Source: Gammaproteobacteria bacterium (GTDB lineage: Bacteria > Pseudomonadota > Gammaproteobacteria > Steroidobacterales > Steroidobacteraceae). From it: a stretch of DNA of 64,000 bases. The translations under genes were made by a program, and so were the position numbers. The stretch lies in contig JANYJY010000032.1 in NCBI GenBank assembly GCA_025358295.1, positions 1 through 64,000 of the forward strand. Direction: 5' to 3'. The notes below the pieces were generated by a model. The model did not search any database. It was not told the origin of the DNA and saw only the letters and a program-made list of their open reading frames with translations. Below are positions 51,906-64,000 of this stretch, piece by piece (within the stretch, counting starts at the first letter, position 1; each line of letters begins with the position of its first letter).

Positions 51906-52814
51906 ATGAATAGTAAAGTTGAACCGAACTGGGCGTGGTACCGCGCTTTCTTGAGCGTCATGGAACACGGATCGCTCTCCGCTGCTGCCCGTGCATTGGG
52001 CCTCACGCAGCCGACCATCGGCCGACATATCGATGGCTTGGAAGCCGCGTTGGGTTTGAAGCCATTCACTCGGTCGTTTGACGGCTTCGCCCCTACGGAT
52101 GCCGGCCTGGAACTCAAGCCTTACGCGCGCGGTTTGAGCGCCACGGCGGCGGCACTCAGGCGCGCCGCCGACAGCCAGGGCGAGGGTGTTCGCGGTACCG
52201 TTCGGCTGACCGCCAGCGAGATAGTCGGGGTTGAGGTCTTGCCGTCGATCCTGGCGAAGCTCAGGCGCAACCATCCGAATTTGAGCATCGAGCTCATGCT
52301 CTCCAACCGCGTGGACGACCTGCTACATCGCGAAGCCGACATTGCAGTGCGTATGCTCCCTCCCGCCCAAGAGGGGCTGGTGGCGCGACGCATTGGCGGA
52401 ATCGAAGTGGGGTTGCATGCGCACCAGAACTACCTGGAACGTCATGGGACGCCAAAAACGCTGCACGAACTTGGCAGCCATACTTTGATCGGATTTGACC
52501 GCGAGAATGAATTGATTCGGCGGCTGCAGAAGCAACACAGCGCATTTATCCGCTCGAGCCTGGCGTTCCGGGCCGACAGCGACCTTGCGCAGCTTGCGGC
52601 CATTCGCGCCGGATTTGGCATCGGCATGTGTCAATCGGCGTTGGCCAAAAGGGATGCGAAGCTGGTACGGATATTGCCCCGTCAGGTTTCGGTTGCGCTC
52701 GACACATGGGTCGCCATGCACGAAGACCTGCGCGGCAACCCGCGGTGCTCGGTCACATTCGCCGCCCTTGCCGAGGGTATCGCCGCGTACCTGAACAATA
52801 GGAGCCCCGCATGA
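51906..52814 (+). CDS. LysR-family transcriptional regulator
   Basis: The 302-residue protein has the LysR winged-helix N-terminus (FLSVMEHGSLSAAARALGLTQPTIGRHIDGLEAALGLKPFTRS, about 16-58) and a C-terminal periplasmic-binding-like effector domain (VRLTASEIVGVEVLPSILAKLRRNHPNLSIEL onward). It is divergent from the SDR gene, the usual arrangement for a regulator and its target, and overlaps the downstream thioesterase gene as ATGA. The effector is unknown. Confidence 0.93.
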   Translation: MNSKVEPNWAWYRAFLSVMEHGSLSAAARALGLTQPTIGRHIDGLEAALGLKPFTRSFDGFAPTDAGLELKPYARGLSATAAALRRAADSQGEGVRGTVRLTASEIVGVEVLPSILAKLRRNHPNLSIELMLSNRVDDLLHREADIAVRMLPPAQEGLVARRIGGIEVGLHAHQNYLERHGTPKTLHELGSHTLIGFDRENELIRRLQKQHSAFIRSSLAFRADSDLAQLAAIRAGFGIGMCQSALAKRDAKLVRILPRQVSVALDTWVAMHEDLRGNPRCSVTFAALAEGIAAYLNNRSPA

Positions 52815-53254
52815 AGGACACGCTGAAACCGGGCATCAAATACGAACACCGATTCGTTCTGCCCCGCTCCAAAACCGTTCCCGCGCTTTATCCGGAAGCC
52901 GCGGAGTTTCAAGTCATGCCGGAGGTCTTTGCAACCGGGTTCCTGGTCGGTTTTCTGGAATGGGCCTGCATTCGAGCCATCAATCCCCACTTGGATTGGC
53001 CCGCGGAGCTCACCTTGGGCACGCACATCGATGTCAGTCACGAAGCCGCGACCCCGGCCGGACTCGAAGTCATCGCCAGCGTCGAATTGATCGCAGTAGA
53101 AGGCCGGAAACTCACTTTTACCGTCAGCGCCCACGACGGAGTCGATTTGATCTCGCAGGGACGGCACGAGCGGCACATCGTCGATAGGCAGAGGTTCGAC
53201 GCCAAAACGAGTGCCAAGGCAAAATTACCCGCAGCCGACGTGGGAGATGCCTAA
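52811..53254 (+). CDS. Thioesterase of the FlK-like hot-dog family
   Basis: The 147-residue protein resembles fluoroacetyl-CoA thioesterase-like proteins. It has KYEHRFVLPRSKTVPALYPEAAEF, then TGFLVGFLEWACIRAINPHLDWPAELTLGTHIDVSH, a hot-dog core that holds the conserved Glu (about 44) and His, and VEGRKLTFTVSAHDGVDLISQGRHERHIV. It should hydrolyse an acyl-CoA or similar thioester in the cytosol. Its start overlaps the LysR stop as ATGA, so it is co-transcribed with that gene, and its end overlaps qhpE by four bases from the opposite strand. Confidence 0.85.
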   Translation: MKDTLKPGIKYEHRFVLPRSKTVPALYPEAAEFQVMPEVFATGFLVGFLEWACIRAINPHLDWPAELTLGTHIDVSHEAATPAGLEVIASVELIAVEGRKLTFTVSAHDGVDLISQGRHERHIVDRQRFDAKTSAKAKLPAADVGDA

Positions 53255-53940
53255 TCCAGCAGTGGTGCGCGCCCTCTGCGCTCCGCTCCCACATAGCGTG
53301 CCCTCGCCTCCAAGGCCGCGACCACCGCGCCCGCCGTCGCCTGCTTGGGGCCGTTCAGAATAAGGCGTGTAACCCAGGCTGCGCCGACGCTGGCCCCCGC
53401 CGCCGTATTTGCGCCCGCCATGTGCGGGCATCCGCCGAAGAACCAGGGGCCGAGCAGCGACAGTTCGCCCGCAGCACAACGCGCATCGCCCGTGGCGCGA
53501 ATCACGCCGGCATAGCCCGCTGGATAGACCACTGCGCCTCGAGCCGGCATGGACGCGATGATGATGCAGCCCGAAGCGACCGCGCGTTGCACTGCCGCCG
53601 CGAACACCGCCCGGTCGGCGCTGAGCCCGAGGCTGAGGTGCAGGAGATCAGCGCCGCCGGCAACCGCCCAGTCGATCGCGGCCGCCACTGCTGCGGGGCT
53701 CGTAGGGCCGCCCGCCAAAAACACTTGGCCCAGCAGCAATTCGAAGGCAGCACCGCCGGCCACCCACAATTGCAGAATGCGCGAACCATGGCCGCTCGGA
53801 TCCGGCACCGTGTCGCGGCATTGGACCCGCTCGCCATCGGCGACGAAAGCCGCCGCATCGACCAGCGACACCGCGCCCGCGGCGGCCTCCGCCCAACCAC
53901 CGCAACTGTCGATGAGCCCAGCGCGCCAGGTCACGGTCAA
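53251..53940 (-). CDS. qhpE: QhpE: subtilisin-like leader protease of the quinohemoprotein amine dehydrogenase system
   Basis: The 229-residue protein is a compact S8-type protease: Asp in GLIDSCGGW, His in GHGSRILQL, and Ser in GASVGAAWVTRLI. That is shorter than classical subtilisins but matches QhpE, which removes the leader of the gamma subunit after crosslinking. The start overlaps the qhpF stop as TTGA (a GTG two codons later is possible). It is the last gene of the operon. No signal peptide is visible, so it should work in the cytoplasm. Confidence 0.88.
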   Translation of the reverse strand: MTVTWRAGLIDSCGGWAEAAAGAVSLVDAAAFVADGERVQCRDTVPDPSGHGSRILQLWVAGGAAFELLLGQVFLAGGPTSPAAVAAAIDWAVAGGADLLHLSLGLSADRAVFAAAVQRAVASGCIIIASMPARGAVVYPAGYAGVIRATGDARCAAGELSLLGPWFFGGCPHMAGANTAAGASVGAAWVTRLILNGPKQATAGAVVAALEARARYVGAERRGRAPLLD

Positions 53941-55628
53941 CCGGCGAGACGCGCGGGGTGTAATCTGCCGGCCTCCAGTTGCCAGCAGACATCCGTGCCT
54001 TCGACATCATCCGCTCGGTGCGTGATGATGATCCGGGTGCGTTTGGCAAAGGCCGCATCCAGCGAGCGATGCACCGCGCGGGCCGAGGCCGTATCGAGTC
54101 CGCTGGTCGCCTCATCCAGAATGACAATCAGCGGCTCCGCCAAGGCGGCGCGCGCAATGGCGATTCTCTGTCGTTGGCCGGTGGACAGTCCCGCGCCCCC
54201 CTCACCCACCCAGGTGGCGTAACCCTCGGGCAGCGCGCTAACGAACTCATCGACCTGAGCCTGACGCGCCGCCTCGATCGCCTGCGCATCGTCGACCAGC
54301 GGATGCCCGTAGCGCAGATTGTCCAAGATGGAACCGCGGAACAAAACCGGGGAGTGCTCGACCACGACGACGCGTCGGCGCAGATCGGACAGCTTGTAGG
54401 CCTCGAGCGGCCGGCCGTCCAAGAGTATCCGTCCGGACTCCGGTTCAACAAAACGGCGCAGTAAATCGGCCAGCGTGGACTTGCCTGCGCCGGAGGCGCC
54501 GCGCAACACCAACTTGCAGCCGGCGGGAATGTCCGCCGTCACAGCGTCGAGCAGCGGTCGACCGTCGATGTTCGCGCCGATGCTCAGCGCCTCGAAGCGC
54601 AGCGCCCCCAGTGCAGATGCCGGCAGCCCGATGGCAGCAGCGGATTCGTGCACACAGGGAAGATCGAGCAACTCCTCCACCCGTTCCAGGCTGACTCGTG
54701 CGCGCTGGTAGCCCGTATACAAAGAAGCGATGGACGCCGCGGACCCTGAGCTGCGTCCCAAATAGGCGACGAACGCGACCAGTGTCCCCACGCTCAATTG
54801 TCCCTGCAGCACATACCAGCCACCCAGAACGAACACTCCGGCAGTCGCCAAGTGACCCAGAAGTCCGGCGAACGAACCCGTGGCGTAAATGACCATTTGC
54901 TGCCGCAGCACGCGCACCAAGTACAGATGTCCCAGGCCGGCGAGTCGCTGTCCCTCAATTTCCTCCGCCGCCGCGGCCTGCACCTGGCGCGCACCCGACA
55001 AGGTCTCCACTAAAAAGCCGCTCAACCGGCTCGCTGCTTCACGCAGGGCGCGCGTGCTCGCCTCGATGCGTGGCCGCGCATGGTGTCGCACTATTAATTG
55101 CAGCGGCAGCAGCGCAGCAATGAGCAGGGTCAGTCGCCATGACAGCCCCAGCATGACGGCGCCCACCGCGATCAACGTCAACAGGCTGCTGATCAAGGAC
55201 GGCGCCGCATCGGTGCCGAAGCGTTGCACTTCGGCAATGTCGCCGTCGAGGCGGCTGACCATGTCGCCTACCGGAACGCGCGCCAGTCGCCGCGGCGACA
55301 CACGCAGCAGGTGCGCATACACCGCGCCGCGCAAAGAAAATAGAGCGCGGCCCGATGCGCGCACGTAGATCACCCGGTGCAGGCCGCCGAGCGCGAAACC
55401 AGCCAGTGCAAGTCCCAGCATGCCGAGGCAGGCACCGACAAGGCGCGGAAACTGGCGGCCGATGAGGCCCTGATCGATGACGATGCGTGTGAGCAGCGGC
55501 TGGGCCGCCGATAGTGCCGCAATCATTAGCCCGAGCAGCAGCGCCAGGCTCAGCAGCCCGAGCTGGGGCCTTACATGCGGCCACAGCAACTGCCGGATGC
55601 CGCGACTGTTAGTGGTCGTGGATGACAC
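53937..55628 (-). CDS. qhpF: QhpF: ABC exporter of the quinohemoprotein amine dehydrogenase system
   Basis: The 563-residue half-transporter has a six-helix membrane domain (about 15-300) and an ATPase domain with Walker A GASGAGKST, signature LSTGQRQRIAIARA, and Walker B LIVILDEATSGLD. It is fused in the order of type I exporters. In Paracoccus the equivalent protein is required to make active enzyme and is proposed to move the gamma peptide to the periplasm. The GTG start overlaps the qhpB end by 20 bases. The signature Thr in LSTGQ replaces the usual Gly (LSGGQ), a common benign variant. Confidence 0.92.
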   Translation of the reverse strand: MSSTTTNSRGIRQLLWPHVRPQLGLLSLALLLGLMIAALSAAQPLLTRIVIDQGLIGRQFPRLVGACLGMLGLALAGFALGGLHRVIYVRASGRALFSLRGAVYAHLLRVSPRRLARVPVGDMVSRLDGDIAEVQRFGTDAAPSLISSLLTLIAVGAVMLGLSWRLTLLIAALLPLQLIVRHHARPRIEASTRALREAASRLSGFLVETLSGARQVQAAAAEEIEGQRLAGLGHLYLVRVLRQQMVIYATGSFAGLLGHLATAGVFVLGGWYVLQGQLSVGTLVAFVAYLGRSSGSAASIASLYTGYQRARVSLERVEELLDLPCVHESAAAIGLPASALGALRFEALSIGANIDGRPLLDAVTADIPAGCKLVLRGASGAGKSTLADLLRRFVEPESGRILLDGRPLEAYKLSDLRRRVVVVEHSPVLFRGSILDNLRYGHPLVDDAQAIEAARQAQVDEFVSALPEGYATWVGEGGAGLSTGQRQRIAIARAALAEPLIVILDEATSGLDTASARAVHRSLDAAFAKRTRIIITHRADDVEGTDVCWQLEAGRLHPARLAG

Positions 55629-56733
55629 GCAGGGTCGACAAGGTCTGATCGCTGCAACCCGGCAGCTTCAGTATGGCGTTCTTTGCAAGCGTCTTGGCAT
55701 CGTAAAAGCCCACGTCGCAGTTGGTGCCGCCGACATAGATTTCGCGCCCGTCGGTCGACACATTCACCGCATAAAAAGTGTGATCCAGCGGTACCCGCTT
55801 CTCGAGGCGATGACCTGCCATGTCCACACTGGTCAGGGTCGTATACACGCCATAGGCGTGGGACCGATCCGGACTCAGTACCGTCGAGAAAATCAGCGCC
55901 GACAACGGCTCGAAATCCGCGTAGGCAAGCTCGCCGGACTTCAGATTCAGCGACATCAGCGCCGTCATAGGCACGCCCTTGTCATCCTTCTTCAGCTCCG
56001 AATAAACGGGGCTGGTAAATACTCCGGTGGGCTCGGTCACCGGCCAGAACGCCAGCAAGTCCGGCTGCGAATGATCTGCCAGCGCCCACTTCTGAATGCC
56101 GCGAGTGTCCAACAGCTTCCCCGTCTTGACGTCGTACTCATACAGATCGAATCCCAGGGCATAGAAGGTCGATCCGTTCGGCCGCATCAGCAGCATGTGA
56201 ATGCGGCGCGGCGCCGGATAACTGCGCACCGGTTTTGCGGCCAGGCCTGCGTCGGTGCGGAACACGGCGAAGCGCGGCTCCTCCACGATGTACTCGCTGG
56301 GTTTGAGCCGGGTCGGCAACTCATACGCAATGAGTTCCTTGCCGTCCGGAGTGACCGTCAAGGCAAAGAAATCCTTCACCCGTTCATCCGGCGCGGACAG
56401 GTCCGCGCGGAACACCTCGCGGCCGGTGGCCAGTTCGATACCGAGAATTCGCTCCATTTTGTCGACCAACAAATACGCGATGCGCTGATCGGGGGATGTC
56501 ACAATGGTAAAAATCTGGCCATTGGCGCCGGCGAGGTGATATTCGGTGCGTATGCTGCGCGTCGCCGCATCGATAATGAACAGTTGATCCGGCTTCGCTC
56601 CCGTGATCAGCAGATCAGCCGCCGGCGTTGCGGCACGCGCGGCGCCCGATGCGTTCAATGGCAGTGCCAGCGTTGCCGAAATCGCCATTGCGGCGCCCAT
56701 CGCCCAGGAACCCAGTGACCGTACCAACTCCAT
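55609..56733 (-). CDS. qhpB: QhpB: beta-propeller subunit of quinohemoprotein amine dehydrogenase
   Basis: The product is about 374 residues. I start at the ATG at 56733, which follows AGGAG; a GTG at 56751 is in frame and overlaps qhpC as GTGA. A signal peptide (MELVRSLGSWAMGAAMAISATLALPLNASGAARA, about 1-35) precedes propeller blades such as DLLITGAKPDQLFIIDAATRSIRTEYHLAGANGQIFTIVTSPD. It should be exported and form the seven-bladed beta subunit that sits against the gamma subunit. The catalytic quinone is in gamma, not here. Confidence 0.93.
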   Translation of the reverse strand: MELVRSLGSWAMGAAMAISATLALPLNASGAARAATPAADLLITGAKPDQLFIIDAATRSIRTEYHLAGANGQIFTIVTSPDQRIAYLLVDKMERILGIELATGREVFRADLSAPDERVKDFFALTVTPDGKELIAYELPTRLKPSEYIVEEPRFAVFRTDAGLAAKPVRSYPAPRRIHMLLMRPNGSTFYALGFDLYEYDVKTGKLLDTRGIQKWALADHSQPDLLAFWPVTEPTGVFTSPVYSELKKDDKGVPMTALMSLNLKSGELAYADFEPLSALIFSTVLSPDRSHAYGVYTTLTSVDMAGHRLEKRVPLDHTFYAVNVSTDGREIYVGGTNCDVGFYDAKTLAKNAILKLPGCSDQTLSTLRVIHDH

Positions 56734-56747
56734 CCTGACTCTCCTGC

Positions 56748-57068
56748 TCACTTCTTCGGAAACACTGAATCAAGATCGCGCCAATCGCCCGGTGCCGATG
56801 GCTTGCCCGCATCCCAATTCGGATAGGTACTCATGGTGTCCGGCACCTGTGCCGGCCACCAGCACGGATCCGAACAGCCGTACAGATCCGCCTCCATCGG
56901 CTGGCACAGCGATGCGACGCCGCCGAAGGGATCGACTTCCCAGCCCGGATCGAAGGTCGTGGCGCAGCCGGCGACCGTCTCCATGGCCAGCACTTCGGCA
57001 ACATGGCCCTCGGCCACGGCATCGAGCAGCAATTCGGCTTTACGGTTGGTGGGTTTCAGTTCGCTCAT
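56748..57068 (-). CDS. qhpC: QhpC: gamma subunit, cysteine tryptophylquinone-bearing peptide
   Basis: The 106-residue protein carries the signature [15 protein letters not shown] and [19 protein letters not shown]. All crosslinking residues of Paracoccus gamma are conserved with an offset of 28. Three thioethers should form: C35-E44, C55-D61 and C69-D77. The cofactor pair is C65-W71. The offset implies that the first 28 residues ([28 protein letters not shown]) are a leader that QhpE removes. It overlaps both qhpD and qhpB by four bases. It has no signal peptide, which is consistent with export through QhpF. Confidence 0.95.
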
Positions 57069-58519
57069 GCGAGGGCACTCCGCGGTTCAAGGTGACGGGT
57101 AAAGAAGCTTGGATTGTTGCGCTGGATGTCGGCGTATACACGCACGCCGAAATCGACCCAGCTGCGCAGCAGGTCGCAATAGTGATAAGTACGGTGATGG
57201 GCATCGCCGAAGCGCGAATACGATTCGTGATAACAGCCTCCGGCGCACAAATTGCGGATTCGGCAGGTCTCACAGTGGGTGCCTTCGCGATTGATTGCCT
57301 TGTCGATGAAGGCGCCAAGCCGCTCGCCGTCGATCCCGGAGCTCACATTGCCGAAGGCCGGTAGATCCGAACCCGTGAACCGATGACAGAGATTCAAATC
57401 GCCGTCGCCGTCGACCGCAAGCAGGCCGACGCCGGCGCCGCAGGGCAGGGACTTGCGTCGCCCCTCGTGGAGATCCGTCATCAACTGATGCATGTTGGAG
57501 AAGCCGTTGTTCGCGCCGCGCAAAGCCGCCCGGCGGTAATCCTCACCGAGCCGCTCGAAGGCCCTGTGCACCTCCTGAAGCTCCGCGTCCGACAGTGCGT
57601 GCGCCGCTTCGGCAGCCGCCGTCACCGGCGCATAGCCCACCTCATGAAAGCCGATCTCGCCCCGCAGATGCGCGTGAATCGCCTCGACCTCCGTCGTGCC
57701 TCCCCCCAAAGTCACGCGGGCGCCCACGGCACGCGAGCGATAGCGCTCCAGCAGCACGCGCACCTTGCGAGCGACCACCTCGTACGTGCCCTTGCCGCCG
57801 ACGCTTTTACGATGACGGTCATGAATGTCCTTCGGGCCGTCGATGGAAATCGAAATTCCGAAGCGGTGCGCATCGAAGTAATCGATCAACCCCGGCGTCA
57901 ACAACGTCGCATTCGTGGTCATCGAAAAGTCCATCTGCTGCCCCGCTCGAGCGGCTTCCGCTTCGGCGTAGCCCACCACCTGCTTGATGAGCGCGACATT
58001 GCTCAGGGGCTCGCCGCCGAAGAACACAATGTTGACGCGCTCCCGGGCCGCACCTACCTTCAGTAGCAGATCGACGCTGCGCGCTGCCGTAACGAAATCC
58101 ATTTTGCGGCCGTCGGCCGGCTTGGCGAGATCTTCTTTGTAGCAATACGTACAAGACAGGTTGCAGCCGGTGTTGACGTTCAACACCAGCGTGCTCAAGG
58201 GATAGGAGCTGACTTTGACACTGCCGGGATTGATGGGCCTCAAGCTGCCGGATGGCTGCAGCATTTCCAGCTTGCGCAATTCGGCGGCGAAACTGCGCAC
58301 CCGGCTGGGCGGATAGCGATCGGCGAGCAGAGCGACCAATCCATCGACGCTGTGGCCGCCCTTCTCGCGGCAAAGTTCGATGACGGAGAGGCCAAGTGAA
58401 TCCACGCCGAATACCGCCGTGGTCGGCACGTGCAACAGATAGGCGTCGGCGTCGGCGCGAACCAGATGGCCGTTCCAGGAATTCCATTCGAGGCGTTCGG
58501 TTGTGTCGATGGTGTGCAT
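57065..58519 (-). CDS. qhpD: QhpD: radical SAM enzyme making thioether links in the gamma subunit
   Basis: The 484-residue protein has the radical SAM cluster motif at C119, C123 and C126 (CNLSCTYC), preceded by a PqqD-like N-terminal domain. It has a SPASM C-terminal region with [33 protein letters not shown] (about 431-463). It reduces SAM and links cysteines to Asp/Glu in QhpC. AAGGA ahead of the ATG supports the start, and the stop overlaps qhpC. It shares family traits with other peptide-modifying SPASM enzymes, but context and partner make QhpD the clear call. Confidence 0.95.
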
Positions 58520-58526
58520 GGGGTCC

Positions 58527-60104
58527 TTAATAAATGGGTGGGGTAATCCAGCGCTGCACGGTTACCACGAGATGGCCGCGCCCCTCGACGCTGCGGCTGC
58601 CGTCCGTTGCGCGGGCGACCACGGTGAGATTGCCCACATTGTCGCCCGAAAATTCGCGGGCCGGATTCGGGCCGGCGGCACTCGGCAGAAACCGGCCGCG
58701 TGCATCGAAGTGTCCGGCGTATTTGAAATCCTCAGTGCGCTTGGCCTCCGCATCGAAAGGGATGCTCGTCCAGTCGGCCGTCATGGGTCCGAGCGGCAGT
58801 AGCTCTCCATTCGGCAGACGTGTTGATGCCATGGCTTCGAACTGCGCGGCCACCGGCGCCGCCTTGCCGCCGCCGAGGCGCGCGATGGCATAGGCCGGCA
58901 CCACATCGATCTGGTCGATCTGGGTGTACACCGCGACCTTGCCCGTGGCGCCGCCCGTCGACACCTTGCGCATCCCGGGCGTCGCATTCGCCGCCAATTT
59001 CACCAGCACACGAACCCGGTTTGCCTCATTTTGCACCACGGTGACTTTCGCCGTATCGCCAAACGACGCCGGCGCACCCCGCGTCGATGCCAGTCCGTTG
59101 CCTACCATGGTCACGAGAGTCGTCGAGCCGGCACGCAGCGATTGCGGGAACAGGGCGAGCACCTCAGCGGCTCCTCCTTCGCGTATCGCGGTCCATTCCC
59201 CGCCTTCTTCGGCATGTTCGCTGTCGAACCATCGGCCCGAGAGGCGATTGCCGTCCTCCGACAGCGCGTATACCTCGCGCCAGGAACGATCGCGCACCTG
59301 CGCGCTGCCACGCCATTCGTAGCCCGTATAAACGAGAGCCTTAGACTCCCCCGCAAATTCGAAGTCTGTGACATCGGTCAGCTGATAGGCCGCCTTGTAG
59401 CCACCGCCCTCCTCACGATCAATGCGCGCCTTGCCGAAAAAATCCTTGCCGCCGGGCATATGACCCGAGACCACCCAGTTGCCGGTCAAATCGCGCGCAG
59501 GGAGCGCCTTCCAATCGGTCCATGCCGTCGTGGACAAGGGATATAACGCCGCCAGCTTGGCCGGCAGCGGACCGCTCGCAATCTGCCACCAAGGCCGATC
59601 GCGGCCCGAGGCAGAATATTCAATGGAAGTCCACTGACCCACGTGCGTATGCGCGAGCTTTCGCCATTCCTCTTCGTCGCGCCGCTGCAGCGCCGCGCGC
59701 GCGATCGAATGACAACGTCCGCACATCACGCTGATCTCCGGCCCCAGATCCATATCTTGCGCATTCGGCCGCCGCTCCAGCGCGAAGCGTCCCGCCGCCG
59801 ACTCGGAGGGCGCAAGGCCCTGAGTATCCGCGAGATAGCGGACGATGGAATCGTGCACCGCATCCTCGAGCACGAGACCGTGTACCTGACGCATGCGAAA
59901 CAAGGTCATGACCCAGCCTTCGGGCGTCTTACGGATTGCGCTGATTCGTTCAAATGACCCGGAATTCTCCCGATGGCAGCCGCTGCAATAGGTGCGCACC
60001 AGTTCCTGACCCGGCACAGCCGGTGCCGCCGCGGCGTGTCCGCCCATGCCGATCACGAGCGCACTCACCACCAATTTCCAATACTTTGCGAGACCGATCG
60101 ACAC
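58527..60104 (-). CDS. qhpA: QhpA: diheme alpha subunit of quinohemoprotein amine dehydrogenase
   Basis: The start is the GTG at 60104, seven bases after AGGAGGT; longer open frames upstream would read into qhpG. The 525-residue product has a signal peptide (1-27, ending HAAAAP), heme c motifs CSGCH (40-44) and CGRCH (128-132), and a chain of beta domains to the C-terminus. The two hemes pass electrons from the quinone to an acceptor, probably a cytochrome c or cupredoxin. The stop lies seven bases from the qhpD start. It is the first structural gene after qhpG. Confidence 0.95.
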   Translation of the reverse strand: MSIGLAKYWKLVVSALVIGMGGHAAAAPAVPGQELVRTYCSGCHRENSGSFERISAIRKTPEGWVMTLFRMRQVHGLVLEDAVHDSIVRYLADTQGLAPSESAAGRFALERRPNAQDMDLGPEISVMCGRCHSIARAALQRRDEEEWRKLAHTHVGQWTSIEYSASGRDRPWWQIASGPLPAKLAALYPLSTTAWTDWKALPARDLTGNWVVSGHMPGGKDFFGKARIDREEGGGYKAAYQLTDVTDFEFAGESKALVYTGYEWRGSAQVRDRSWREVYALSEDGNRLSGRWFDSEHAEEGGEWTAIREGGAAEVLALFPQSLRAGSTTLVTMVGNGLASTRGAPASFGDTAKVTVVQNEANRVRVLVKLAANATPGMRKVSTGGATGKVAVYTQIDQIDVVPAYAIARLGGGKAAPVAAQFEAMASTRLPNGELLPLGPMTADWTSIPFDAEAKRTEDFKYAGHFDARGRFLPSAAGPNPAREFSGDNVGNLTVVARATDGSRSVEGRGHLVVTVQRWITPPIY

Positions 60105-60108
60105 GGAT

Positions 60109-61437
60109 TTAACCTCCTGACGAAACGTTGGGCGGAACTTGCCGTAGCAGGGTGCCCGTCTTCTGTAGCCAATGAATGGCGGAAACCACCGCCGCCTGCG
60201 GTCGGTCGAGTGCCGCAACCGCTCCGGCGATGGTGGCCGACTCCGCCGTATCGAAATAATTTTTCAGCGACGCCAGCGGGACGCCGCCGATGTGCCACAC
60301 GCCTCTCGGATGTTGCGCGGTGACGATGACGTCGCGCTCGAGAATGCGTCCCTCGACCAGCACTGGTCGGCGCTCAATGCGCGGCGCCACGGCGGGCTGC
60401 GCGAGCGGCGCCTGTTCGGGCAACAGCCTTGCATACGCCGCGGCGGTGTCGCGCCAAAATGCACCGCGCTCGCCGAGCTCGCGATAGAATTCTGCCGCCC
60501 TGGCGACGCCACGCTGCCAGACCTCGTCCTGCCTGTCGGCGACGAAGCGATAGGCGCACAGCGCATCGCCGCCCTCACGCAGCGATTGGACGGCCGTCGC
60601 CACCAGCTGCGCGCCACGCAGCGCTTCATAAATCCCCTGGCCGGACAGCGGATCGTGCGCCACAGCCGCATCGCCCACCTGCCAGCGCGTGGGGTCACCG
60701 TGGCCCAAACCGAGCCGCGCGTGCGCCGGCCTGGCGACGGGCTCGCCCGCGGCCACGGCAAACGTCAGCGCCTCTTGCAGCGCCGGAATCTGTGCCGCCG
60801 CTGCCGCCAACCACGATGCCGGGTGTCCCGCCCGCGGCTGTCCCACAATCTGGACCCACAGCAGGTCGTCGTGCCAAGCCCACCAGCACCACGAAGAATC
60901 GGTCACACCGATCCCCGTCCCGGCGCGCCCGGTCGCTGGGGTGCGAAACCGCTGACCAAAGCTCAGCAGACAGGGTCCGCGGCGCTGCGGGCCGCGACGG
61001 CCGCGGGCGTCGATGAGCAGCGGCGCCGCCAGCACTTTGCCGCTACGCAATCGCACCCACCAATGATCCGCCGAACGCGTGGCAGTCAACGCCAAGTCCG
61101 GCTCATGTACGGCGCCGGCGCTGATTGCAAGCGCCCGCAAGGCGGTGGCCAGCCGTGAACGTTCCACCAGCCATTCGGTCCCTGCGACGACTCGACCGCC
61201 GGCCCAGATCCCGCGGCGCGCGACTGGGCCCACCAGAATATCCGTTTCGCGACCGAAGCCTGCCTCGCCGGGCAGGGCACCTGCCTCGATCAGCAGAGCC
61301 CGGCTGCGAGCCGACAATCCCTCCCAGCTCGGCCGCGAGTCCATCCCCACCAGCGCCACGCGCGCACCCGCCGCCGCCAGCCGTTGCGCGACCACACTGC
61401 CCGCAGGCCCGGCGCCGCAGACGATGATGTCGGGCAT
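60109..61437 (-). CDS. qhpG: QhpG: FAD-dependent tryptophan monooxygenase of cofactor biogenesis
   Basis: I start at the ATG at 61437 ([14 protein letters not shown]), which overlaps the stop of the acyl-CoA ligase as ATGA. Longer in-frame starts would lie inside that gene. The 442-residue product has a dinucleotide loop GAGPAGSVVAQRLAAAG, the RARVAL-type binding segment, and VGDAAVAHDPLSGQGIYEALRG (about 265-285), as in flavoprotein monooxygenases such as tryptophan halogenase relatives. In Paracoccus, QhpG hydroxylates the gamma-subunit tryptophan on the way to the cofactor. It lies four bases ahead of the qhpA start. Confidence 0.9.
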   Translation of the reverse strand: MPDIIVCGAGPAGSVVAQRLAAAGARVALVGMDSRPSWEGLSARSRALLIEAGALPGEAGFGRETDILVGPVARRGIWAGGRVVAGTEWLVERSRLATALRALAISAGAVHEPDLALTATRSADHWWVRLRSGKVLAAPLLIDARGRRGPQRRGPCLLSFGQRFRTPATGRAGTGIGVTDSSWCWWAWHDDLLWVQIVGQPRAGHPASWLAAAAAQIPALQEALTFAVAAGEPVARPAHARLGLGHGDPTRWQVGDAAVAHDPLSGQGIYEALRGAQLVATAVQSLREGGDALCAYRFVADRQDEVWQRGVARAAEFYRELGERGAFWRDTAAAYARLLPEQAPLAQPAVAPRIERRPVLVEGRILERDVIVTAQHPRGVWHIGGVPLASLKNYFDTAESATIAGAVAALDRPQAAVVSAIHWLQKTGTLLRQVPPNVSSGG

Positions 61438-63140
61438 CACGCGTGCTCTTCCTCGTTGAGATTGAGCTCGGCGCGCAGCTGCTCGCGAATCAGAAACTTC
61501 TGCACCTTGCCGCTGACCGTGAGCGGAAAGCTTTGCATGAAGCGCACGTAGCGCGGCACCTTGTAGTGCGCAATCTGGCTGCGGCAAAACTCGCGGATGT
61601 CCTCTTCACTGGCGCTCATGCCGCTGCGCAACTGAATGCACGCGCAGACGGCTTCGCCGTACTTGGGGTCGGGAACACCGACCACGGTGACGTCCAGGAC
61701 GGCCGGATGGCGGTAGAGAAATTCTTCGACTTCCCGCGGGTAAACATTTTCGCCGCCGCGAATGATCATGTCCTTCACCCGACCGACTATGTTGCAGTAG
61801 CCTTGCTCATCGATCAGCGCCAGGTCGCCGGTGTGCATCCAGCCGCCTGCATCGATGGCGTCCCTCGTACGTTCCGGCTCGTTCCAGTAACCGCGCATCA
61901 CGCTATAGCCGCGAGTCAGCAGCTCGCCGGCCGCTCCACGCGGAGTAACGTTCCCGTCGGCGTCGATGATTTTCACTTGCACATGGGGGTGCACGCGGCC
62001 GACCGTCGTGACACGCAATTCCAGCGGATCGTCGGTGCAGCTCTGAAAACTGACGGGACTGGTTTCCGTCATGCCATAACAGATCGTCACCTCCGGCATG
62101 TGCATGTCGGCAACCACCCGGCGCATCACGGCGGTCGGACAGGGGGACCCGGCCATGATGCCGGTGCGCAGCGACGACAAGTCGAACTCGCCGAAGCGCG
62201 GATGTTCCAGTTGTGCGATGAACATGGTCGGCACGCCATGCAATACCGTGCAGCGCTCGCGCGCCACGGTCTCGAGCACCGCCAAAGGCTCAAAACCCTC
62301 GCTGGGAAACACGCTCGCAGCGCCGTGGGTCATGGCGGCGAGCACACCGAGCACCATGCCGAAGCAGTGATACAAGGGCACGGGAATACAGACGCTGTCC
62401 TCAGGCTTGAGCCGCATGCCTTCGCCGACGAAGAATCCATTGTTCACGATATTGAAGTGCGTCAGCGTCGCGCCCTTCGGCGTCCCCGTCGTGCCGCTGG
62501 TGAACTGAATATTAAAAATCTGATCGGCATCCAGTTGTTCCGGGATTTCCCCCGCCGCCGCGTCGGCGGCGCGTCCCAACGCGATGACGTCGTCGAATGA
62601 CATGCTCCCTTGCATGGGCGCCGCGCTCAATTGAATCAGCAGATTGAGTTCCGGAAAGGCGGCACAATCCAGCGACCCGGGCGTGGCGTTGCCCAGCTCC
62701 GGAATGAGCGCTTGCAGCATGCCCACGTAATCGCTGGTCTTGAAACGCGGTGCGAACACCAGCGCACGGCAGCCGACCAGACGCAGGACGAACTCAAGTT
62801 CCGTGGTGCGGTACGCCGGATTGATATTCACCAGCACCAGCCCGGCGCGGGCGGCGGCGAATAGGCTCAGGACCCATTCCGCGCAATTCGGTGCCCAAAT
62901 GCCGATGCGCTCGCCCGACCGCAGGCCGCAGGCCAGCAAGCCGCGCGCAACCAGATCGACCTCGCGATCGAATTCGGCGTAGGTGTAGCGCAGCGACTGA
63001 AACGGCACCACCAGCGCGGTTCGATTCGGACCCTCGGCGGCGGCTGCTTTTAGCACGCCGTCGACGGTGCGATAGAGCAGCGGCGCCTCACTGGTACCCG
63101 ACACGAAACTCAAGGAGCGTGGCCCAGTCATCGGGTACAT
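61437..63140 (-). CDS. AMP-binding acyl-CoA ligase, first gene of the qhp transcript
   Basis: The 567-residue enzyme has the acyl-adenylate motifs [16 protein letters not shown] (P-loop), [54 protein letters not shown] (the hinge) and the C-terminal [12 protein letters not shown] Lys. It fits medium/long-chain fatty acid CoA ligases. Its stop overlaps qhpG as ATGA, so it is transcribed with the amine dehydrogenase genes. A role in activating the carboxylic acid formed after amine oxidation is inferred from that location. The start could be the ATG at 63140 or at 63131. Confidence 0.9.
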
Positions 63141-63146
63141 GTGCCC

Positions 63147-63166
63147 TTAGCCGCTTCGGCGGCTAA
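63147..63166. other. Hairpin spanning the TonB receptor stop, just ahead of the ligase start
   Basis: TTAGCCGC (63147-63154) and GCGGCTAA (63159-63166) form an 8-bp stem; the top pair closes a TTCG tetraloop on the plus strand (CGAA on the minus). The stop codon of the TonB receptor (63163-63165) is in the stem. The ribosome site of the acyl-CoA ligase (AAGGG) starts within the 3' arm on the minus strand. There is no trailing T-run in the direction of transcription. It could tune mRNA decay or mask the ribosome site. Confidence 0.5.
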
Positions 63167-64000
63167 AAATGGTATTGCGCATCGACCCCAAACATACGCG
63201 GAGTGCCGACATGGCGATAGTCAAAGCCAAAGCCCTGCACGTCGACCGCGTTCGTCAGATAGAACTTGTCTCCGATGTTGCGTCCCCACACACCCACGTC
63301 CCACTTGTCGGCTGCGACACTGACGCGCGCATTCAGCAACGCATAGCCGCCCTGCGCAATCGCCTCCTCGTTGGGCAATGCCAGGTACTGCTTCGAATTG
63401 TAATTCGTATCCACGTGGATGTTGAACTTCAATGCGTCGATTTGCCAGGCCTGCCAATCCGCGGCCAGAGTGCCGGAGAAATGCGGCGCATACGGCAGCT
63501 CCTGCCCGATGATGGAACCCGTGGCGAGAGTGCCCTCCTGGACTTCAGAATGCAGGAAGCCAGCGCTGGCGCGCAGCGTCAGGGCGCGGACCGGCCGGGT
63601 CACGATCTCGAGTTCGCCGCCGTCGATCTTGGACTTGCCAAGATTGATCAGCGGCTGCTGGCCGGTCGGATACACATTAATGATCTGCTGCTCCTTGTAC
63701 TGGTAGTGGAACAGAGCGCCGTCCACCTGCACGCGGTGATCCAACCAAGACGTCTTGAATCCCACTTCGTACGCATTCAGCGTCTCCGGCTTGACCGTCG
63801 TCAAATCGTCCGGTGTGAACAGAAATTGGGCATTGAAGGCCGCCGAGCGGTAACCCTTGCTGTAATTGAAATACAGCAAGGAATCCGGCGTCAAAGTGAC
63901 GTCGATGCCTGCACGCCCCGTGACTGCCGTGTTGTGCAGGTCCTGCCGGCGGGTCTGATTGATGATGGCGTCATAGTTGGGCGAGCCCGGCAGGGCCAGT
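63163..64000 (-). CDS. TonB-dependent receptor, C-terminal part (continues past the window)
   Basis: The frame is open to the last base of the window (about 278 residues seen). It has barrel strands typical of TonB-dependent receptors (SLLYFNYSKGYRSAAFN, TLNAYEVGFKTSWLDHRVQVDGALFHYQYKEQQI) and ends in the outer-membrane signature DAQYHF with the final aromatic. The N-terminal plug and TonB box lie outside the window. Such proteins import scarce ligands across the outer membrane. Position just upstream of the ligase and qhp genes suggests that the ligand may be an amine or an amine-bearing compound. Confidence 0.88.
   Translation of the reverse strand, partial: LALPGSPNYDAIINQTRRQDLHNTAVTGRAGIDVTLTPDSLLYFNYSKGYRSAAFNAQFLFTPDDLTTVKPETLNAYEVGFKTSWLDHRVQVDGALFHYQYKEQQIINVYPTGQQPLINLGKSKIDGGELEIVTRPVRALTLRASAGFLHSEVQEGTLATGSIIGQELPYAPHFSGTLAADWQAWQIDALKFNIHVDTNYNSKQYLALPNEEAIAQGGYALLNARVSVAADKWDVGVWGRNIGDKFYLTNAVDVQGFGFDYRHVGTPRMFGVDAQYHF

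Follow-up and report, generated by a model that had tools for sequence, protein, structure and literature searches.

The closest described counterparts of the locus examined here are the qhp/pea operons of Paracoccus, Pseudomonas, Cupriavidus and Leisingera, which carry the same structural and maturation genes. As far as the available part of the account by Oozeki et al. goes (PMC7876137), maturation of quinohemoprotein amine dehydrogenase (QHNDH) involves crosslinking by QhpD, hydroxylation of Trp by QhpG, trimming by QhpE and export by QhpF, and the known operon has an n-butylamine-inducible regulator. A second point of comparison is the CrbS/R (MxtR/ErdR) system of Pseudomonas, whose response regulator (CrbR/ErdR) is known for its role in acetate and ethanol metabolism (PMC12997753, PMC5715377; available portions of both).

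We analysed a 64,000-nucleotide stretch of gammaproteobacterial DNA (the window) and the adjoining part of its contig. The window contains a qhp gene set, and upstream of it lies an island of genes, about half of it beyond the window's edge, that probably belongs to the same regulon.

An intact qhp gene set

The genes qhpG-A-D-C-B-F-E occupy the minus strand from position 61437 down to 53251 (Table 1), and an open-frame check found 0/7 frames broken. Six of the seven products pass their NCBIfam cut-offs, the exception being QhpF. The genes for the alpha, beta and gamma subunits of QHNDH all score above their family cut-offs (NCBIfam), as do the maturation genes qhpD, qhpE and qhpG; the passes of QhpG (250.7/240) and QhpE (171.7/165) are narrow. 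The ABC exporter gene qhpF completes the maturation set by domain and position. It matches generic ABC exporter models alone (NCBIfam, Pfam) and was assigned because of its position and because it shares 44-85% identity with the gene found at this position in loci of the window's group. The first-pass annotation had described an intact minus-strand set in this order, complete in structural (QhpA, QhpB, QhpC) and maturation (QhpD, QhpE, QhpF, QhpG) genes, and frames, cut-offs and positions agree with it.

The motifs that it had listed (heme motifs, radical SAM cysteines and crosslink residues) are likewise all found in the alignments. QhpA contains two CxxCH heme motifs (CSGCH and CGRCH) and four Pfam QHNDH alpha domains. 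In QhpD, CxxxCxxC and seven further Cys make up ten Cys common to three named relatives. QhpC residues C35, E44, C55, D61, C65, C69, W71 and D77 are invariant across 12 family sequences and shared by both solved gamma subunits (1jju and 1jmx); we take them to be the thioether-crosslink pairs and the CTQ residues. Asp, His and Ser align between QhpE and three named relatives and presumably form the subtilisin triad. QhpC can be aligned to 1jju_C and 1jmx_G starting at residue 29-30, which implies a leader of ~28 residues; the gamma-subunit leader given in the available part of PMC7876137 is likewise ~28 residues long. The top solved relative of QhpG is a peptidyl tryptophan dihydroxylase (7ctq_A). 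QhpG is much less conserved than the other Qhp proteins (inside the window's group, 32-62% identity versus 67-96% for QhpC).

Translation of qhpA probably starts at GTG 60104 and that of qhpB at ATG 56733, and qhpE begins at TTG 53940 or GTG 53934. Because of the likely qhpB start, the gap between qhpC and qhpB is 14 bases; the genes are consecutive, as had been noted, but the accompanying statement that overlaps or gaps stay under ten bases fails at this junction. Judged by sequence, the seven genes encode a QHNDH with a cysteine tryptophylquinone (CTQ) cofactor, and it is sound to predict that this enzyme oxidises primary amines in the periplasm. Taken alone, the seven-gene set is a further member of a known, widespread operon.

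Table 1. Features of the qhp locus and the upstream island. Coordinates past 64000 lie on the same contig beyond the window, with numbering continuous with the window.
Feature	Coordinates	Strand	Basis
qhpE, subtilisin-like protease removing QhpC leader (predicted)	53251..53940	-	NF049966 171.7 bits, cut-off 165
qhpF, ABC exporter for processed QhpC (predicted)	53937..55628	-	ABC_membrane + ABC_tran
qhpB, beta subunit	55609..56733	-	TIGR03907 343.7 bits, cut-off 223.2
qhpC, gamma subunit	56748..57068	-	NF037958 160.2 bits, cut-off 50
qhpD, radical SAM thioether-forming enzyme	57065..58519	-	TIGR03906 680.5 bits, cut-off 453
qhpA, di-heme alpha subunit	58527..60104	-	TIGR03908 519.4 bits, cut-off 274.35
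qhpG, flavin monooxygenase (peptidyl-Trp dihydroxylase)	60109..61437	-	NF049967 250.7 bits, cut-off 240
AMP-forming acyl-CoA ligase	61437..63140	-	PF00501 + PF13193; same place at related loci
TonB-dependent receptor (C-terminal part in window)	63163..64000, gene to 65550	-	open frame + ortholog scan
Aldehyde dehydrogenase (ALDH)	65610-67091	-	best model StyD
Candidate box ATACCAAAGTAT	67267-67278		regulator-ALDH gap
LuxR-type response regulator, divergent, ErdR-like	67285-67935	+	best models ErdR, MctR
Hybrid kinase, NahK/ErcS-like	67929-69512	-	best models NahK/ErcS
NosP-like FIST protein	69347-70495	-	best model NosP
MbcS-like CoA ligase	70492-72171	-	best model MbcS

Gene order across qhp loci

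Synteny was surveyed by tblastn at 98 loci (the best 80 of at least 507 confirmed relatives, 13 family loci and 5 plasmids), of which 87 were distinct once 11 on the same contigs had been removed; drawn in this way, the survey leans towards close relatives. The loci of the window's group numbered L039-L060 are, by their titles, all from metagenome bins. In this deduplicated set, built on the best 80 of at least 507 relatives and 18 others, GADCBFE is contiguous in 26/87 distinct loci and the ADCB core is present in 85/87. The two loci lacking ADCB are L033, where the contig ends early, and L129, a divergent plasmid locus of Novosphingobium sp. RL4 (QhpD 39% identical) in which A, D, C, F and E are present and tblastn found no match to QhpB. 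Within the same best-80-based set, qhpG was detected by tblastn in 57/87 distinct loci and an F-E-G run, many of them in Pseudomonas, in 18/87.

The order with qhpG first also occurs in Azospirillum, a Minwuiaceae bin, a Rhodospirillales bin and the Leisingera plasmid, and on the Paracoccus plasmid a qhpG relative (34% identical) is divergent and lies upstream of qhpA. Variable gene order and strands are also reported by Oozeki et al. (PMC7876137, available part). The leading position of qhpG, which the first-pass annotation had set apart from an expected place at the end of the cluster, is thus neither an oddity nor a novelty: compared with Paracoccus and Pseudomonas loci the placement of qhpG varies, and the 26/87 loci, the Leisingera plasmid and the published variability do not bear out a special status.

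The upstream island

The stop codon of the ligase gene overlaps the start of qhpG, the receptor gene ends 22 bases ahead of the ligase, and the ALDH lies 59 bases ahead of the receptor start. The transcription unit likely begins upstream of qhpG, past the window edge, and likely comprises ten genes, ALDH - TonB receptor - acyl-CoA ligase - qhpGADCBFE, over ~14 kb. The island had gone unnoticed in the first-pass annotation because half of it is beyond the window. Among the 87 distinct loci (set built on the best 80 of at least 507), TonB-lig-GADCBFE occurs in 11, in 6 of which an ALDH stands immediately ahead; the QhpA proteins of these loci are 46-74% identical to that of the window. The best paralog of the receptor within its own genome is 35% identical.

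The best models of the other island proteins (StyD, ErdR/MctR, NahK/ErcS, NosP and MbcS) all score under their cut-offs. The regulator scores 150.3 bits with ErdR (cut-off 390) and 123.6 with MctR (cut-off 300), the hybrid kinase 344 bits with NahK/ErcS (cut-off 400), and the FIST protein 244.9 bits with NosP (NF041558, cut-off 450). Phenylacetaldehyde dehydrogenase provides both the best model (StyD, NF045735) and the nearest solved relative (4o5h, 625 bits) of the ALDH, which scores under the StyD cut-off (684.3 bits, cut-off 850). The genome also encodes PaaA of phenylacetyl-CoA catabolism (521 bits, above cut-off).

An ALDH is likewise found near qhp on plasmids of Paracoccus, Cupriavidus, P. 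nitroreducens and Leisingera, and the Leisingera plasmid has an AMP-binding protein near qhp, as here. In contrast to the qhp/pea plasmids, a TonB receptor and ligase precede qhpG at this locus, and two-component genes with a box take the place of the AraC/helix-turn-helix or sigma-54 regulators found there. The LuxR-type regulator, with ErdR and MctR as its best models, resembles that of CrbS/R; the kinase here is NahK/ErcS-like and has a NosP-like FIST partner, whereas a symporter-like domain is described for the CrbS homolog (PMC12997753, available part), and the target here is an amine locus. The island, with its receptor and two-component control, seems to be a variant new to qhp loci; among the papers listed, in a search of titles and abstract openings that covered few subscription papers, we found none that links QHNDH as one locus to a TonB receptor or to control by a two-component system.

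Co-occurrence of the island genes with qhp

The ortholog scans, identical in settings, size and genome handles, are taken as one draw of 246 genomes of the same order, 14 of which have a QhpC above cut-off. Orthologs of the receptor occur in 9/246 genomes, all qhp-positive and all nine at the qhp locus, and the score falls from 764 bits for the last of them to 442 bits for the best match elsewhere. The regulator (one threshold, E 1e-50) and the ALDH (at least 870 bits, with a gap from 874 to 681 bits) each have orthologs in 10/246 genomes, again all qhp-positive, 9 of them on the qhp contig; in one genome (G134) both are on other contigs than qhp. For the receptor and ALDH scans the best 4 and best 6 first-look candidates, respectively, were scored per genome. 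Fisher tests gave p = 3e-13 (receptor), 5e-15 (regulator) and 5e-15 (ALDH) with genomes counted as independent, values that kinship inflates. Neither receptor, regulator nor ALDH was found at these limits in four qhp-less genomes of the same genus (G182, G223, G225, G233). In a sample of the phylum, 7/398 genomes have a QhpC above cut-off, the window's genome among them.

Four genomes of the order (G069, G076, G098, G168) gave weak QhpC matches, which were rejected as evidence of qhp carriage. For G069 and G098 a QhpC-like frame was not found among the frames listed, and the candidate frame in G098 is acyl-CoA-dehydrogenase-like by eye. A 36-residue frame at G168:C17:28378-28470 (L018), with CWWPAQIP, resembles the CTQ region of QhpC; the other qhp genes were not matched in the surrounding 12.6 kb, and the frame is perhaps a qhp remnant.

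A candidate box and -10-like element

The exact 12-mer ATACCAAAGTAT is present once in the 4.02-Mb genome (assembly, 74 contigs), in the gap between regulator and ALDH. Five further copies have one mismatch, giving six in all; a reversed-pattern control also gave six, and the five are therefore taken as chance. Across the 103 loci (1.79 Mb) the inner 10-mer matches 9 times, against 3.4 times expected if all bases were used equally; a single site accounts for two of the 9, and every match precedes an ALDH or receptor gene. In the window's group, 12/12 loci in which the regulator immediately adjoins ALDH or receptor carry a site in the gap (the window, L023, L024, L025, L027, L028, L031, L032, L045, L047 and, at the upstream ends of L039 and L041, L148 and L149). 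In L031, ALDH-lig is separate from the qhp unit and both units carry the box, which there heads TonB-G-A-D-C-B-F-E; in L024, L027, L032 and L045 it heads TonB-lig-G-A-D-C-B-F-E, all five without an intervening ALDH. A GATACT-like hexamer, a pattern picked after looking at the sites, stands 45-50 bases past the box in 15/15 group sites and is exactly GATACT in 11.

A matrix was trained on ten group sites; L148, L149, L022 and the ALDH sites of L029/L031 were outside training. At 17 bits or more, a limit chosen after the outside scores had been seen, it finds sites in 5/61 loci outside the group (1.10 Mb), always in the ALDH-receptor gap: L066, L073 and L075 (Emcibacter), L068 ('Alphaproteobacteria bacterium') and L103 (Haliea). 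Their scores are 17.1-22.2, the next being 15.4, and 47 strand-hits of at least 9 bits are scattered over the 61 loci; three runs of a Markov null each yielded 1 site per 1.10 Mb. Since four of the five loci are probably closely related to one another, they amount to nearer two independent cases. Next to L073 and L075, a regulator (42-43% identical to that of the window's contig), the kinase and the FIST gene likewise lie beside ALDH, box and qhp. The receptors of the Emcibacter/Haliea loci are 24-27% identical to that of the window and are therefore putative orthologs at most.

In genomes where no regulator ortholog was found (G097 = G645, G114, G646, G649) the stretch read has no site of 14 bits or more; the exception is G085 (L022), with a box and no regulator at E 1e-50. 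G134 has no box site in the 20 kb around qhp. At L072 (Rhodospirillales) a regulator relative (45%) is beside qhpA and relatives of the kinase and FIST protein are nearby, with no site of even 9 bits. This counter-case and the after-the-fact 17-bit limit lower our confidence slightly, both in the regulon reading and in the more tentative phosphorelay design proposed below.

Compared by eye, the putative box core is similar to the ACTU motif, an imperfect palindrome such as TAATACTAAGGTCGTCT (PMC5715377, available part). The candidate box here may likewise be an imperfect palindrome; it ends in GTAT where the ACTU motif ends in GTC.

Proposed pathway and alternatives

Gene content, intactness, linkage, co-occurrence and the box with its spacing are facts at the level of sequence. 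We think it probable that ALDH, receptor, ligase and qhp form an amine-to-acyl-CoA regulon under two-component control at the box. The receptor would carry the amine, as such or in some bulky form, through the outer membrane; QHNDH would turn it into the aldehyde in the periplasm, its two c hemes passing on the electrons; the ALDH, whose closest relatives are phenylacetaldehyde dehydrogenases, would convert the aldehyde to the acid, and the ligase the acid to acyl-CoA. The NahK/ErcS-like hybrid kinase and NosP-like FIST protein may feed the divergent ErdR/CrbR-like response regulator, which would bind ATACCAAAGTAT and activate the unit from the GATACT -10-like element 45-50 bases on, standing in for an AraC-type QhpR. 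What we infer in this scheme is that the genes are transcribed as a single unit and that the regulator binds the box, and likewise the signal, the substrate and the receptor's cargo. An arylethylamine such as 2-phenylethylamine is a fair guess for the substrate, because the ALDH resembles phenylacetaldehyde dehydrogenase and PaaA is present.

That no QhpR gene is in the window had been reported, and the absence extends further: 0/14 of the genome's HTH_18 matches lie anywhere on the contig, so that no linked AraC-type qhpR was detected there. Since the published arrangement varies (PMC7876137, available part), a missing linked qhpR does not exclude membership of the qhp operons. The locus could be an ordinary qhp operon under an unlinked QhpR, with receptor, ligase, ALDH and two-component genes as mere neighbours; 13 AraC-type domains score above cut-off elsewhere in the genome, an AraC gene (three seeds) is found at 11/87 distinct loci (set built on the best 80 of at least 507), and the known operon is controlled by its n-butylamine-inducible regulator (PMC7876137, same part). 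We regard this as quite improbable. Orthologs of the receptor, the regulator and the high-scoring ALDH are confined to qhp-positive genomes among the 246, the box stands at the head of the unit, and the 11 AraC loci and 17 regulator/kinase loci (3 of them weak regulator matches in Azospirillum) do not overlap among the 87 (best 80 of at least 507).

It is unlikely, too, that the two-component module is an acid/CoA switch resembling CrbS/R for acetate, its box driving ALDH and receptor while qhp is carried along or has its own promoter: the regulator ortholog (E 1e-50) is found in 0/232 genomes without a QhpC above cut-off, and in L031, L024, L027, L032 and L045 the box directly heads the TonB-(lig)-GADCBFE genes. 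Such a switch would nonetheless agree with ErdR and MctR as the regulator's best models, with the adjacent MbcS-like CoA ligase, with the similar CrbR motif of acetate genes (PMC5715377, available part) and with L029, where the box is before ALDH-lig and none is before qhpG. As CrbR/ErdR is known for acetate and ethanol metabolism, the switch may, even within the amine regulon that we favour, answer the acid or aldehyde rather than the amine. The receptor might instead supply iron or heme, since QHNDH and its maturation are rich in heme and FeS. Among NCBIfam models a siderophore receptor subfamily comes top (175 bits, under the cut-off of 223.5), and among PDB sequences siderophore, pesticin and colicin receptors match best (top 67 bits), yet the receptor exceeds none of the curated cut-offs shown, and an iron receptor beside ALDH and ligase under one box would be unexpected; we consider this role rather doubtful and substrate uptake the preferred reading.

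More tentatively, and with the case for and against nearly in balance, a NosP/NahK-ErdR-like phosphorelay acting via ATACYAWAGTAT, together with a TonB receptor dedicated to the amine or to a carrier of it, could constitute an alternative way of controlling CTQ enzymes and importing their substrate in Gamma- and Alphaproteobacteria, one that we did not meet in the literature consulted. If so, CTQ enzymes would have a second mode of regulation, and the motif could be used as a search marker elsewhere. The regulon, if true, would place behind a single box a testable pathway that runs from the receptor through amine and aldehyde oxidation to CoA activation, and it predicts TonB-dependent amine entry in little-cultured Gammaproteobacteria.

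Flanking genes

A LysR-type regulator and a FlK-like thioesterase on the plus strand (51906-53254) run into the end of qhpE. They were rejected as island members: FlK occurs once in 98 loci (L072), and LysR was not found among the matches listed for the 98 loci, an earlier scan having given it once (as LysR' in L084). Beyond the island, contig positions 74703-81896 (L002 10703-17896) carry an amino-acid permease, a glutamine-synthetase-like gene, a second ALDH and an iron-type alcohol dehydrogenase, which looks like another amine or polyamine route.
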